DNA from: Natronohydrobacter sp.
GTDB taxonomy: Bacteria; Pseudomonadota; Alphaproteobacteria; Rhodobacterales; Rhodobacteraceae
Direction: 5' to 3'
Assembly (NCBI GenBank): GCA_007125005.1
Contig: SLDY01000016.1
Location: 22,579 to 86,578, forward strand
Length of the DNA: 64,000 nt
The position numbers and the translations under genes are program-made. Positions 34,192-41,123 of the stretch are shown here, in pieces. The notes beneath the pieces were generated by a model. It searched no databases and was not told where the DNA came from. It worked only from the letters and a program-made list of their open reading frames with translations. Each line of letters begins with the position of its first letter. The first letter of the stretch is position 1.

Positions 34192-35541
34192 TCAGCTTTG
34201 ACCGGGCTTGGCCAGAAATGCCTCCAGCCAATGGATGTCATAATTGCCGCTCTGCACATCCGGTTCTGCAAGAAGAGCACGAAAGAGTGGAACCGAACTG
34301 TCCACTCCGTCGATGATCAGTTCGCCAAGCGCCCGATTGAGGCGGGCGAGGGCTTCTGGACGATCGCGGCCATGCACGATCAGTTTCGCGATCAGACTGT
34401 CGTAATGCGGTGGGATCGTGTAGCCCGAATAGAGTGCTGAATCCATGCGCACGCCGAGGCCGCCCGGTGCATGGTAGGTCTCGACCCTGCCGGGGCAGGG
34501 CGTGAAATTGGGAAGACGTTCGGCATTGATACGCACTTCGATGGCATGGCCATTGAGCACGAGATTGTCTTGTGTGAATGATAGCGGATGGCCGCCTGCG
34601 ACCCGGATCTGCTCGCGCACAAGATCCACGCCGAATATGGCCTCTGTCACGGGATGCTCGACCTGAAGCCGGGTGTTCATCTCGATGAAGTAGAACTCGC
34701 CATTCTCATAGAGAAACTCGATTGTGCCAGCGCCACGATAGCCAATGCGCGCGATGGCTTCGGCGCAGGTCTGCCCGATGCGGGCTCGGGTCTCGGGATC
34801 AATGGCGGGGCCGGGGGCTTCCTCAAGCACTTTCTGGTGGCGGCGCTGAAGTGAGCAGTCGCGCTCGCCCAAGTGCACGGCATTGCCCTTGCCATCACCA
34901 AAGACCTGAATTTCGATATGGCGTGGCGCGCCGAGATATTTCTCGAGATAGACTTCGTCATTGCCAAAAGCCGCCTTGCCCTCGGCGCGGGCCGTGCGGA
35001 AAGCTGTCTCAAGATCAGCCTCGCTGCGCGCCAGTTTCATGCCACGCCCACCGCCACCGGCTGTGGCCTTGATGATGACGGGATAGCCGATCTCTGCGGC
35101 GACCGTCTGCGCGGTCTCAAAATCCGGCACGCCACCCTCAGAGCCGGGCACGCAGGGCACGCCAAGAGCCTTCATAGTTTCCTTGGCAGTGATCTTGTCA
35201 CCCATCATGCGGATATGTTCAGCAGAGGGCCCGATGAACGTGATCCCATGATCCTCGACCACTTGCACGAATGCCGCGTTTTCCGACAGGAAACCATATC
35301 CGGGGTGAATTGCCTCGGCCCCGGAAATCTCGCAGGCCGAAATAATCGCCGGGACATGCAGATAGCTTTGTGATGCAGGCGCAGGGCCAATGCAGATGGC
35401 TTCATCCGCCATGCGCACATGCATTGCATCGGCATCAGCAGTGGAGTGCACAGCGACCGAGCCTATTCCCATCTCTCGGCAGGCGCGGATAACGCGCAGG
35501 GCGATCTCACCGCGATTGGCAATCAGGATCTTGTTGAACAT
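34192..35541 (-). CDS. accC: Acetyl-CoA carboxylase biotin carboxylase subunit
   Basis: [54 protein letters not shown]. Confidence 0.98.
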
Positions 35542-35554
35542 CCCACACCCTGCC

Positions 35555-36046
35555 TTATTCGATAATCATCAGAGGTGCGCCAAACTCGACAGGGCTGCCA
35601 TCGCTGACAAGAATACGTTTCACTGTTCCCGCGCGTGGAGCAGGAATATGGTTCATCGTTTTCATGGCCTCGATGATCATGAGTGTATCGCCTTCGGCGA
35701 CTTGCGAACCGATATTGACAAAGTTTGCAGCACCGGGTTCGGCGGCCAGATAGGCCGTGCCGACCATCGGTGACGTGACTGCACCGGGATGCTGCGCCGG
35801 ATCTGCGGGCAAGTCAGATTTCGCCGGGCCGGATTGCGCCGGCGCTGTTGCGGATACAACAGGCGCGGGAGCCGGTGCCATCTGCTGCACAGCACTGGCG
35901 CTTGAAAACTTGGATACCTTGACGTTCAGACTGTCATTTTCGCCATATTCCCGTTTGACGCTGAGTTCGGAGAGGTTGTTCTCGTCGAGAAGCTCCGCAA
36001 GGGCTTTGATAAAGGCAACATCGGCATCATTGCGGCTCTGCGTCAT
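35555..36046 (-). CDS. accB: Acetyl-CoA carboxylase biotin carboxyl carrier protein
   Basis: C-terminal biotinyl domain [40 protein letters not shown]; start at MTQSRN within the longer ORF. Confidence 0.97.
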
Positions 36047-36233
36047 CGGGATCCTCGTTTTTATACATGACACGGCCACCGGGGCAGCCTGCGCTTGTTG
36101 GGGCGCCTTATACTTGAGTGATCCAGCGCTGTGAAGCCGGGTTTTCATCTCTTGCGGGCGTGCGCTTGAGCAACAGAAAAACGTTTTGCGGTGACCGGGA
36201 TTTGGATAGAGATGGAATCGGGAAGGATCACAT

Positions 36234-37553
36234 ATGGCTCGGAACGCATTAACCGGAACGCGAATACGCGCTCGACGCAACATGCGTGGATTGCGACAGT
36301 CGGAGCTTGCGCGGACCGTTGGGGTGTCTCCATCTTATCTGAATCTTATTGAGCATAACCGGCGCAAGGTCGGACCAGATCTTCTGGATGCTCTGGCGCA
36401 GGCGCTGGGTGTGTCTCCTGATACACTTGCGGAGGATGGCGATGCGCGATTGGTCGAAGGCGCGCGCGCTGCTGCGTTGCGCAGTGGCGCAGACCTTGCC
36501 GATCTTGAGCGCATAGAGGAGTTTACCGGGCGGTTTCCGGGCTGGGCCAAGGTTCTCGCACAGACCCAGGGGCGCGTTGAAAGGCTGGAGCGCGTTGTTG
36601 ATCAGCTTAATGACCGCATGACGCATGACCCTTATCTGGGCGAGGCATTGCACGAGATCATCTCAGCAGTGACATCCGTGCAATCCACAGCGACAATTCT
36701 CAACGACGCACAAGAGATCGAACCGGATTGGCAACTGCGATTTCATCAAAATATCCTGCAGGATAGTGCGCGCCTCGCGGAAGGGGCTGTCGCACTTGTG
36801 AATTATCTCGATGCTGCCAAAGACGATGAGATGGGCCTTGCTGCGCCGCAGGAAGAAGTAGAATCATGGCTTGCAGAGCGGGGGTTTCATCTGAAAGAAC
36901 TCGAAACGGGGAGTTCGCCTTCAGAGGTTCGGGTCACCGATCAGATCGCGCTTTCCTCGGAAGCCTCGCGCACACTCGCGCGGCGCTGGGTCGCAAGGTT
37001 CGGGGCTGATGTGTCGGCCTTGCCGCTGGAGCCATTCGTGAGTGCCATTGACATGTACGGGATGGCGCCGGATGTTCTTGCCGAAACGTTCCAGGTTCCA
37101 TTTGACCAGATCCTGCGTCGCCTCGCATTTCTGCCGCCTGAGATATATGAGCAGCGTTCAGTGCCTGCTCCAGGTCTGGTCATATGTGACAGTTCAGGGA
37201 CGCTTGTCTTCCGTCGACCACTGCAAGGTTTCACCTTTCCGCGCTTTGGTGGCGGCTGCCCGCTCTGGCCATTGTATCAGGCACTTCAAACCCCTGATAT
37301 GCCGCTGCGCGTGCCACTGGTAACAGCTGGCCGGCTGGGGCGGCGGTTCATAGCCTTTGCTTATTGTGCACGACAGGGTCAGATGAGTTTTGATGCGCCA
37401 AGATTGCTTCAGGCCACCATGCTTGTCATCCCCGATGACGCGACTCAACATACCGATAAGCCAATGCTTTCGGTGGGGGCGAGCTGCAGGACTTGTGCCC
37501 AGCTCGATTGCCCTGCCAGGCGTGAGCCCTCGATACTGATGGGGGCTGTATGA
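36234..37553 (+). CDS. XRE-type regulator with DUF2083/ScfR-like C-terminus and an internal DHp-like segment
   Basis: N-terminal HTH RIRARRNMRGLRQSELARTVGVSPSYLNLIEHNRRKVG; C-terminal GASCRTCAQLDCPARREPSI typical of DUF2083 proteins; residues about 134-195 resemble HisKA. Confidence 0.85.
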   Translation: MARNALTGTRIRARRNMRGLRQSELARTVGVSPSYLNLIEHNRRKVGPDLLDALAQALGVSPDTLAEDGDARLVEGARAAALRSGADLADLERIEEFTGRFPGWAKVLAQTQGRVERLERVVDQLNDRMTHDPYLGEALHEIISAVTSVQSTATILNDAQEIEPDWQLRFHQNILQDSARLAEGAVALVNYLDAAKDDEMGLAAPQEEVESWLAERGFHLKELETGSSPSEVRVTDQIALSSEASRTLARRWVARFGADVSALPLEPFVSAIDMYGMAPDVLAETFQVPFDQILRRLAFLPPEIYEQRSVPAPGLVICDSSGTLVFRRPLQGFTFPRFGGGCPLWPLYQALQTPDMPLRVPLVTAGRLGRRFIAFAYCARQGQMSFDAPRLLQATMLVIPDDATQHTDKPMLSVGASCRTCAQLDCPARREPSILMGAV

Positions 37554-37712: not shown

Positions 37713-38081
37713 ATGGAGAAGCGTATTCTGGTCATTGAGGATGAGCCCAATATCTCAGAAGCATTGCGCTTCATCCTATCTCGAAACGGCTGGCAGGTGG
37801 ATGTTTCGGCGGATGGTCATGCTGCTATCGAGACCATGCGCAAAGACCCCCCTGATCTGTTAATTCTGGATGTGATGCTCCCCGGTCTGAGCGGTTTTGA
37901 TGTGCTTCGCTCGGTTCGCGAGGTCGAATGCACGCGTGACCTGCCGGTACTGATGCTGACCGCCAAAGGTCAGGGAGCCGATCGCGCCGAAGCGGAGCGC
38001 TTGGGGGTGACGCGCTTCATGACGAAGCCTTTCGCCAATGCAGAGGTGATCGCGGCCGTTCAGGATTTGGCCGGAACATGA
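37713..38081 (+). CDS. Single-domain (receiver-only) response regulator
   Basis: MEKRILVIEDEPNISEALRFILSRNGW, LLILDVMLPGLSGFDVL, VLMLTAKGQ, RFMTKPFANAEV; no output domain. Confidence 0.93.
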   Translation: MEKRILVIEDEPNISEALRFILSRNGWQVDVSADGHAAIETMRKDPPDLLILDVMLPGLSGFDVLRSVREVECTRDLPVLMLTAKGQGADRAEAERLGVTRFMTKPFANAEVIAAVQDLAGT

Positions 38082-38386
38082 AACCACCACGCAGCTCTCA
38101 GTTTGTGGCCAGAGAAAGTTACCGTATCCGGCGGTTGATGGATGCTGCACGCTTTTTGCCGGTTTTCGGGCTGATGCTTTTGCTGTTGCCGCTTATGCGT
38201 GGCACATCCGGCCCGGAGGCACCTCCTACGGCAGCCGAGTCTGTCTATCTCTTCAGTGTTTGGATAGGTCTTGTGCTCGTCGCCTTTCTGATGTCGCTTG
38301 TATTGCGCAGGACGCTTGATCCGCCGAAGTCGGCACAACCGCCTCTGCCCCAAAAGCGTGAAGCCCTTCCTGAAGCAGAGGACTAG
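38078..38386 (+). CDS. Small two-TM protein between response regulator and SLC5-type histidine kinase
   Basis: MDAARFLPVFGLMLLLLPLM and AAESVYLFSVWIGLVLVAFLMSLVLRRTLD; 4-nt overlap with the response regulator. Confidence 0.75.
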   Translation: MKPPRSSQFVARESYRIRRLMDAARFLPVFGLMLLLLPLMRGTSGPEAPPTAAESVYLFSVWIGLVLVAFLMSLVLRRTLDPPKSAQPPLPQKREALPEAED

Positions 38387-38393
38387 CGCGTCG

Positions 38394-41123
38394 ATGTCTT
38401 TCAACCTGCTTGTCCTGACCTGCATCGCCTATGTGATCTTGCTTTTCGCCGTTGCTTCTGCCGCCGAGCGCAGTGCCGCCGAGGGAAGAGCAAAATGGCT
38501 CCGCTCGCCGCTGATATACACGCTATCGCTGTCAGTCTATTGCACGGCGTGGACTTTCTACGGTGCCGTTGGATATGCAGCGCGTTCCGGGCTCGAGTTC
38601 ATGACCATTTACCTCGGGCCAACGCTGGTTTTTGTCGGCTGGTGGGTGATTCTGCGCAAGCTGGTGCGGATAGGGCGCGAGAACCGCGTGACCTCCATAG
38701 CTGACATGATTTCAGCGCGATATGGCAAGTCGAACCTGCTGGGCGTTATCGTCACGCTGTTATGCATTTCGGCAGGAACTCCTTATATCGCGCTGCAACT
38801 GCAATCCATTGCACAATCATTCACGGTCTTTGCCACGGATTCTGTCGGGACTGGCCTCGCCGCCGACCGTAATTTCATTGCCTTCTGGGTCGCAGCGGGG
38901 CTTGCACTCTTCACGATCGCATTTGGCACGCGCAATCTTGATGTGAACGAGCAGCATCCGGGTGTCGTAACAGCAATTGCTGTCGAGGCAGTGGTGAAGT
39001 TGTTAGCGCTGATTGCAGTTGGCGTATTTGCCGTGTGGTTTGTTGCGTCCGGGCCTGCCGATATTCTGGCCCGTATCGACGCGCAGGCCCTTCCAGAGTG
39101 GCATATACAACCTGGGCGCTGGACCGGGTTGATCCTGCTTTCGGCCATTGCCATCATCTGCTTGCCACGCATGTTTCAGGTCACAGTTGTTGAGAATACC
39201 GATGACCAGCATCTGGCAACAGCCAGCTGGGCGTTTCCGCTCTATCTCTTTCTGATCAGTCTCTTTGTCTTGCCTATCGCCGTTGTGGGGCTAGAAGTCA
39301 TGCCCACAGGGACAAATCCCGACATGTTCGTGCTCACGCTGCCGCTGCATCTTGGGCAGGATGGCTTGGCACTCTTGTCTTTTCTTGGGGGATTCTCGGC
39401 GGCGACCTCCATGGTTATCGTCGCCTCGCTGGCACTTGCGACGATGGTGTCGAACCACATCGTCGTGCCGCTTTGGCTGAAGGCGCGAGCGGTGCAGAAT
39501 CTCGATACAGGTGACATGCGGGTTCTGGTGCTAAGCGTCCGTCGGCTATCGATCGTGCTCGTGCTGTGCTTTGGCTACATCTACTATGTCATTTCTGGTG
39601 GCTCTGCTGCCTTGGCAGCTATAGGGCTCATTGCTTTTGTCGGCGTCGCGCAGATCATGCCTGCGCTTCTGGGCGCGCTGTTCTGGCGGGGTGCAAGCCG
39701 AACCGGTGCAGCCATTGGCCTTACAATTGGTTCGCTGCTGTGGTTCTATACGTTGTTCCTCCCCAGTTTTGGGCCAGATGTCATCCTTTCAGCTCGGGTG
39801 ATGGAGCAGGGGTTGTTTGGGCTGTCATGGCTCAGGCCCTACAGTCTATTCGGGTTGACTGCGCTTGATCCGTTGCTGCATTCGCTCTTCTGGTCGCTCC
39901 TGCTGAATGCGCTGGCCTTTTGCGTAGGCTCATTCGTTAGCTTCCCGAGCCCCATTGAGCGTGTGCAAGGCGCTCTCTTTGTCGATATTTTTGACCGGCC
40001 CGGCCCGGCGCGAAGCTGGACCCACCCCGCTGCCGAGGCTGAGGACCTCCTTCCGATGGCGCAGCGAATCCTTGGGCAAAGCGAAGGCCAGAGTTTCTTT
40101 CGTGTGCAGGCGGAGCTGCAAGGAAAACAGGGCTATCTACCTGATATTACGCCAGAGTTTCTGGAGGCGCTGGAACTGAAGCTTTCGGGCTCGGTCGGTG
40201 CCGCAACGGCCCATGCGATGCTTGCCCAGACAGTGGGTACAGCTGTTGTCTCGGTCGAGGATCTGATGGCAGTTGCCTCCGAGACGGCGCAAATCATGGA
40301 GTATTCTGCGCAGCTTGAGGCGAAATCAGAAGAACTGAGTCGCACTGCGCGCAAGCTGCGTGACGCCAATGAAATGCTTCAGAAGCTCTCTGTGCAGAAA
40401 GATGCCTTTCTCAGTCAGATCAGCCACGAGTTGCGTACTCCGATGACATCGATTCGTGCTTTCTCCGAGATCCTTATGGATGGCGAGGGCATGTCTGACG
40501 AGGAGCAGCATCATTTTGCGCAAATCATTCATGATGAATCAATCCGTTTGACACGGCTGCTGGATGATCTGCTTGACCTGAGTGTTCTTGAACATGGACA
40601 GGTTCAGCTCAATATCGGTCCGGCATTGCTGCGCGACCTGATCGACAAATCGATCACCGCCTCCAATTCGGTGCAGGCGGAGCGCAAATTCCGCTTTACG
40701 CGGAGCCGCGACCCCGAGACGATTGAGATCGTGACGGATGCGGGACGCTTGACGCAAGTCTTCATCAATATTCTGTCGAATGCGCGAAAATACTGCATCT
40801 CGGATGACCCCCAAATGAAGATTTCAGTGCGACGGCGCGATGGTATGATCGAGGTCGATTTCACTGATAACGGAGAGGGCATCCCGCGTGACAAGCAGGC
40901 GCTTATCTTCGAGAAATTCTCGCGCCTGACAGATTCCATGCAGGCAGGCGGCGCAGGACTCGGCCTCGCGATTTGCCGTGAGATCATGCATAATCTGGGC
41001 GGTGACATAACCTATGTGCCGGGGCAGGGGGGGGCATGCTTCCGGGTGAGTTTCCCGCTGGAACTTTCACCGCGCGAGGCTTCGCAGAAACCACTTGGCA
41101 AGGAAACAGAAGCTGTCGAATAG
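38394..41123 (+). CDS. Sodium:solute symporter (SLC5-like)-STAC-histidine kinase hybrid (CbrA/CrbS-like)
   Basis: About 13 TM SSS-like N-terminus; STAC-like YLPDITPEFLEALELKLSGSVGAATAHAMLAQ; H-box SHELRTPMTSIRAFSEIL; N-box NILSNARKYC; G-boxes DNGEGIP and GGAGLGLAICREI. Confidence 0.93.
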   Translation: MSFNLLVLTCIAYVILLFAVASAAERSAAEGRAKWLRSPLIYTLSLSVYCTAWTFYGAVGYAARSGLEFMTIYLGPTLVFVGWWVILRKLVRIGRENRVTSIADMISARYGKSNLLGVIVTLLCISAGTPYIALQLQSIAQSFTVFATDSVGTGLAADRNFIAFWVAAGLALFTIAFGTRNLDVNEQHPGVVTAIAVEAVVKLLALIAVGVFAVWFVASGPADILARIDAQALPEWHIQPGRWTGLILLSAIAIICLPRMFQVTVVENTDDQHLATASWAFPLYLFLISLFVLPIAVVGLEVMPTGTNPDMFVLTLPLHLGQDGLALLSFLGGFSAATSMVIVASLALATMVSNHIVVPLWLKARAVQNLDTGDMRVLVLSVRRLSIVLVLCFGYIYYVISGGSAALAAIGLIAFVGVAQIMPALLGALFWRGASRTGAAIGLTIGSLLWFYTLFLPSFGPDVILSARVMEQGLFGLSWLRPYSLFGLTALDPLLHSLFWSLLLNALAFCVGSFVSFPSPIERVQGALFVDIFDRPGPARSWTHPAAEAEDLLPMAQRILGQSEGQSFFRVQAELQGKQGYLPDITPEFLEALELKLSGSVGAATAHAMLAQTVGTAVVSVEDLMAVASETAQIMEYSAQLEAKSEELSRTARKLRDANEMLQKLSVQKDAFLSQISHELRTPMTSIRAFSEILMDGEGMSDEEQHHFAQIIHDESIRLTRLLDDLLDLSVLEHGQVQLNIGPALLRDLIDKSITASNSVQAERKFRFTRSRDPETIEIVTDAGRLTQVFINILSNARKYCISDDPQMKISVRRRDGMIEVDFTDNGEGIPRDKQALIFEKFSRLTDSMQAGGAGLGLAICREIMHNLGGDITYVPGQGGACFRVSFPLELSPREASQKPLGKETEAVE

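Follow-up and report, generated by a model that had tools for sequence, protein, structure and literature searches.

A HisKA-type DHp domain within an ScfR-family transcription factor encoded beside a receiver-only response regulator and an SLC5 transceptor kinase

Described systems related to the locus

Transcription factors of the ScfR/IsaR family, such as RamB, PccR and MccR/PrpR, combine an XRE helix-turn-helix (HTH) with a GAF-like ScfRs C-terminal domain that carries a C-X2-C-X4-C motif and one further cysteine. Members act through two-box operators and control genes of short-chain acyl-CoA metabolism, and ScfR sites consist of two near-identical boxes (PMC10370305). A study of P. denitrificans noted, without analysis, that the ScfR-network member Pden_1785 lies beside a two-component system; Pden_1785 may be an orthologue of the regulator described below.

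Transceptor kinases, in which an SLC5 transporter is fused to a histidine kinase, are represented by CbrA; its partner, the response regulator CbrB, carries a DNA-binding output of its own. Similarly, control of acs, the acetyl-CoA synthetase gene, is exerted by an SLC5 transceptor kinase in the CrbS/CrbR (MxtR/ErdR) acetate system, and CrbS/R activates acs (PMC5436829). CrbR is likewise a DNA-binding response regulator.

DHp-type phosphoacceptors that lack autokinase activity and are paired with a receiver are found in the Spo0F–Spo0B and CckA–ChpT phosphorelays, where Spo0B and ChpT hand the phosphoryl group to a DNA-binding response regulator; ChpT provides a precedent for a phosphotransferase (PMC3433190). 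In Caulobacter, the receiver-only response regulator DivK is paired with DivL, a kinase-like protein that has a CA domain and a DHp that is not part of a working kinase. DivK~P binds to the DHp of this pseudokinase (PMC4211667).

In the window, the 64,000-nucleotide stretch of Natronohydrobacter sp. DNA analysed here, an XRE regulator (termed REG) is encoded with a receiver-only response regulator and an SLC5/SSS-type kinase. Unlike described ScfR/IsaR proteins, REG has a DHp domain between the HTH and DIII, its DIII is truncated in Rhodobacteraceae, and it has an obligate-looking partnership with a two-component system. Whereas CrbR and CbrB carry DNA-binding outputs, the response regulator here is receiver-only, the likely DNA-binding output being the separate, DHp-bearing REG; in a further difference from CrbS/CrbR, the REG-associated kinase has no receiver domain. 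In contrast with DivL, REG is predicted to bind DNA and has no CA domain, and in contrast with Spo0B and ChpT, the putative phosphoacceptor lies inside the DNA-binding protein itself. A literature search for a DHp in an XRE/ScfR regulator found no report, and no precedent for this wiring was found.

The DHp domain of REG

REG (36234–37553, +) is a protein of 439 residues whose open reading frame, reading frame and His140 codon (36651–36653, +) were given correctly in the initial annotation. An XRE HTH (residues 8–67; 36255–36434, +; Pfam HTH_3, E = 1.9e-14) is joined by a long, coiled-coil-like linker predicted to be helical (residues 102–131; 36537–36626, +) to a HisKA-like two-helix DHp hairpin (residues 132–201; 36627–36836, +), which is followed by the truncated DIII and by the GAF-like/ScfRs C-terminal domain (residues 308–434; 37155–37535, +; Pfam ScfRs, E = 9.6e-14). 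The HTH and the ScfRs domain both score above their Pfam cut-offs, which places REG in the ScfR family; elsewhere an orthologue is annotated merely as 'XRE family transcriptional regulator'. Residues C342, C418, C421 and C426, which comprise the C-X2-C-X4-C motif and the GAF cysteine, are invariant among the orthologues. By analogy with MtPrpR, these cysteines would be [4Fe-4S] ligands (PMC6765138).

The middle segment of REG is a real HisKA-type DHp domain, as confirmed by several comparisons. A DHp-like segment at 36633–36818, aligning without gaps to the DHp of the kinase encoded downstream, had been proposed from the sequence, and profile–profile comparison (hhalign) of the two domains bears this out: 58 ungapped columns are aligned (probability 95.8, E = 6.6e-9), and His140 of REG falls on the phospho-acceptor His of the kinase. 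When the source genome was searched with a profile of REG residues 100–205 built from 61 orthologues, REG itself was recovered, followed only by the adjacent kinase (E = 6.3e-8), in a match that covers the HisKA region of the kinase. The genome contains 17 HisKA matches, and that of the adjacent kinase was the only one found by this profile. Correspondingly, a broader REG family profile scored the adjacent kinase at 47.0 bits and the other kinases of the genome at 9.3 bits or less.

AlphaFold modelling of REG predicted helices at residues 102–131, 133–157 and 164–201, with a pLDDT of 76 for the fragment and 86 for the whole protein, and thus produced the helical hairpin expected of the domain. 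In a Foldseek search of the PDB with the REG fragment, the top neighbours were histidine kinases, with HK853 best and VC2136, SrrB and DivL near, at marginal E-values of 0.03–0.3. When the DHp alignment was used as a sequence profile against the PDB, no histidine kinases were returned: the sequence signal is specific to the co-encoded kinase family, and the general resemblance to DHp domains was apparent in the fold search alone. The window REG by itself scores below the Pfam HisKA cut-off of 26.9 bits; two homologues score 38.7 (L202) and 33.7 bits (L201), their HisKA match falling between the HTH and the M78/ScfRs domains, and the H-box of L202, STHELRTFLTSIRSFSEIL, is almost textbook. In agreement with the initial annotation, no HATPase domain was matched by Pfam in REG, nor in eight distant homologues.

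A simple MAFFT pairwise alignment can equate His140 with the FFHY His of canonical ScfR DIII, an assignment that was rejected on profile comparison, in which the REG DHp profile failed to match the middle part of canonical ScfR proteins (probability 0.7), and on the long members of the family. These long members, of 480–600 residues and from other alphaproteobacterial families, have the order HTH, DHp, full DIII and GAF-like domain. Because their DIII begins after the DHp, the DHp is an insertion between the HTH and DIII, and the Rhodobacteraceae REG subsequently lost the first half of DIII. REG homologues extend to many alphaproteobacterial families, and the REG DHp was found only in Alphaproteobacteria when 289 genomes spanning the class and 299 spanning the phylum were searched. 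In a DHp tree, which has few columns, all REG domains formed one clade (SH-aLRT 98) that grouped loosely with the kinase family.

In the window REG, residues 205–307, between the DHp and the ScfRs domain, correspond to only the second half of the ScfR CoA-binding domain. The match to M. tuberculosis PrpR starts in mid-DIII and a complete DIII/IrrE-like CoA-pocket domain is absent; Pfam gave no M78 match in the window REG, and M78 is present in distant DHp-bearing members. Residues Phe155, Lys217 and Phe240 of MtPrpR, which contact CoA, fall in the part missing from REG. Acyl-CoA sensing by the window REG is doubtful, as half of the CoA pocket is absent, and the description of this protein as 'acyl-responsive' in the initial annotation is not supported, though the putative [4Fe-4S] cysteines are kept.

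Operon partners and the acs operator

The receiver-only response regulator (37713–38081, +; 122 residues; Pfam Response_reg, E = 2.9e-26) has its phosphorylation site at Asp53 (37869–37871, +), as judged by conservation among homologues; Asp53 and Lys105 are present in all 146. It is followed by a small ORF for a membrane-protein-like product (38078–38386, +), conserved in 103 of 110 loci, which overlaps the response regulator stop and whose placement recalls that of cbrX upstream of cbrA in Pseudomonas. The SLC5/SSS-type transceptor histidine kinase (38394–41123, +) contains HisKA and HATPase_c domains by Pfam, and its phospho-acceptor His (40425–40427, +), located by profile–profile alignment, has the number 680 when the query is translated from 38388 onwards. 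The transporter half of the kinase matches PDB entry 10ed, a 'histidine kinase' that has such a half (E = 1.3e-72), and an orthologue of the kinase is annotated as a sodium:solute symporter. REG is the sole product of the operon with a DNA-binding domain recognised by Pfam.

The genes for REG, the response regulator, the small ORF and the kinase are adjacent in about 102 of 110 loci, and also in most distant families. Among 150 genomes of the family, sampled at one per genus, searches recovered REG from 131 and the kinase from 133. When the discordant cases were inspected, G008, G017 and G148 also proved to have REG together with the kinase, so that about 133 of the 150 have both and 16 have neither; G023 alone has a divergent kinase without REG. 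The near-constant adjacency and co-occurrence, together with a bare receiver whose Asp and Lys are invariant, uphold the earlier proposal that REG is tied to a receiver-only response regulator. In G023, the divergent SLC5-type kinase (locus L204; 41% identity) is followed by a receiver and no DHp regulator, possibly representing another wiring of the same kinase family. In Paracoccus ferrooxidans (CP038202; L231), the region directly upstream of REG holds another two-component system, next to RND efflux genes.

Many roseobacters have two TTTGTAAA boxes 32 bp apart upstream of REG. This two-box operator, TTTGTAAA-N24-TTTGTAAA, occurs upstream both of REG and of acs, and it agrees with the paired, near-identical boxes of ScfR sites (PMC10370305). 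Whole-genome searches for the TTTGTAAA pair returned the REG promoter and, in G007, G100, G485, G490 and G491, also the acs promoter, and acs promoters that carry the operator were found at L246, L248, L250, L253, L259 and L300. An operator matrix was built from REG promoters alone, 99% of shuffled sequences scoring below 10.1 with it. Across genera, this matrix scored sites in acs promoters that lie at about -130 to -200 and are oriented alike, and the acs of the source genome, which lies on another contig, received a score of 29.9. The operator pair is absent from the REG promoter of the window. Close relatives of the window instead carry, at the REG promoter, a pair of TGTAAA boxes spaced by about 12 bp.

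The acs gene also lies near REG in 56 of 117 genomes, nearly always 6.2–7.3 kb away, as the last gene of a conserved divergent operon that begins with genes of a urea/branched-chain amino-acid type ABC transporter (for example L293, 2524–10080, +). Immediately upstream of the acs genes in this position there is no operator; in L258 it is located in the interval between the divergent genes. In the lineage of the window, the gene pair divergent from REG (34192–36283, −, in the window itself) consists instead of accB/accC-like genes, read by eye as encoding a biotin carboxyl carrier protein and a biotin carboxylase, which replace the ABC–acs operon; a biotin carboxylase neighbour of REG recurs in about 20 loci. 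From gene linkage and the shared operator, the SLC5 kinase appears to be linked to the control of acs.

DHp conservation and a proposed route of the signal

His140 is kept in 111 of 112 first-set orthologues and in 142 of the 146 rows of the extended family (95% weighted), where it is the seventh most conserved position. Neither of the sequence and structure outcomes that the initial annotation had named as refuting its proposal, an unconserved His140 and the lack of a two-helix hairpin, was observed. The +4 position (Ser144 in the window REG; 36663–36665, +) is Ser, Thr or Asn in 99% of the family, and positions +8, +11 and +15, which correspond to the HK853 specificity positions A268, A271 and T275 as named in PDB titles, are well conserved as small, small and Ile. 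By our own mapping, the REG counterparts of the helix-2 specificity positions of HK853 are variable. The +1 acid has a part in the autophosphorylation of HisKA kinases; in REG this position is relaxed, just 38% of members having Glu there, and the +5 Pro has disappeared. All of the co-encoded kinases retain the two residues. Such a pattern is as expected for a DHp that would address a receiver and no longer an ATPase domain. Since the residues that would face the response regulator are conserved and the autokinase residues are relaxed, docking of REG with the response regulator is likely, and phosphorylation of His140 is plausible.

The exceptions at His140 are Gln (L198, L200), Tyr (L203) and Ser (L082). 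A coupling of His loss to kinase loss was considered and rejected, as these four genomes still carry the kinase at some location. They also retain the response regulator, so phosphorylation would not be essential in every member of the family. The same four loci constitute natural experiments for docking versus phosphotransfer.

Alongside the domain identity, conservation, operon linkage and operator sharing with acs, all of which are computed, the following mechanism is proposed. The SLC5 transceptor kinase probably senses acetate or a related carboxylate, and would autophosphorylate and then phosphorylate Asp53 of the receiver-only response regulator. As this protein has no output domain, it would dock on the helix bundle formed by the DHp of REG, a protein that lacks an ATPase domain; the DHp, closest to that of the co-encoded kinase, was inserted into an ScfR-family regulator after the HTH and ahead of the ligand-binding part. 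A phosphoryl group would most likely be exchanged between the response regulator and His140, much as between Spo0F and Spo0B, and the exchange may alter the REG dimer or tetramer and its grip on the paired TTTGTAAA boxes. The targets would be the REG operon itself and acs.

It is reasonably probable that the signal runs from kinase to receiver to REG DHp to acs, as an alphaproteobacterial counterpart of CrbS/R. The more specific proposal is that the transcription factor is itself a histidine phosphoacceptor, with an inserted DHp and a receiver-only donor, combining a relay like that of Spo0F and Spo0B with an ScfR-type Fe-S sensor in the control of acetate activation; long members would possibly add acyl-CoA sensing. 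This proposal is advanced tentatively, at somewhat short of even confidence. Its strongest competitor, itself rather unlikely, is docking without phosphotransfer, in which the phosphorylated response regulator would be an allosteric ligand of the REG DHp and His140 would contribute to the interface only. DivL, a DHp transmitter core turned into a sensor of DivK~P, is a precedent for such docking (PMC4211667), and the natural Tyr, Gln and Ser variants that retain kinase and response regulator, as well as the fact that the +1 acid and the +5 Pro have been lost, are consistent with it. However, His is among the most conserved positions while +1 and +5 vary freely, and under docking alone drift from His should exceed the observed 4 of 146. 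The conservation of His, and of Ser, Thr or Asn at +4, speaks for a role in which the His is used.

A role for the REG DHp as a phosphate sink or phosphatase, which would drain or hydrolyse the phosphorylated response regulator and so feed metabolic information back on the kinase and not to an output, is improbable. It could draw on the conserved Ser/Thr/Asn at +4, the residue class used by HisKA phosphatases. The phosphotransferases ChpT (PMC3433190) and PhyT (PMC5898713) would be precedents. Against this, no other product of the operon has a recognised DNA-binding domain and the REG operator recurs upstream of acs, so that an output role for REG is the simpler explanation. Even less probable is a DHp whose helix bundle serves dimerisation alone and makes no contact with the response regulator: DHp domains do dimerise and XRE regulators bind DNA as dimers, but canonical ScfR proteins manage without a DHp, a mere dimerisation bundle would not keep His, +4 and +8/+11/+15 while relaxing +1 and +5, and the linkage to a kinase and a receiver-only response regulator would be left unexplained. 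A coincidental helix similarity, with the segment an ordinary ScfR helical region and no DHp, might be suggested by the sub-threshold Pfam score of the window REG and the pairwise alignment with the FFHY helix, but is already refuted by the failure to match canonical ScfR middles, the position of DIII after the DHp in long members, the homologues above the HisKA cut-off, and the own-genome search and profile–profile alignment that both point to the adjacent kinase.

Because the DHp-bearing regulator adjoins a matching kinase and a receiver-only response regulator, acetate-use genes are probably under the control of a membrane sensor that signals straight into a DHp-bearing gene switch. This would provide a route of acs control for a widespread alphaproteobacterial group; in gammaproteobacteria the task falls to the DNA-binding response regulator CrbR. 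For receiver-only response regulators an output is often not known, and the REG family offers a concrete one, a DHp inside a transcription factor. The wiring would reverse the usual direction, with the receiver speaking to the DHp, and would extend the DivK–DivL idea to DNA binding. If REG is indeed a histidine phosphoacceptor, the family would represent a distinct class of two-component output in Alphaproteobacteria.
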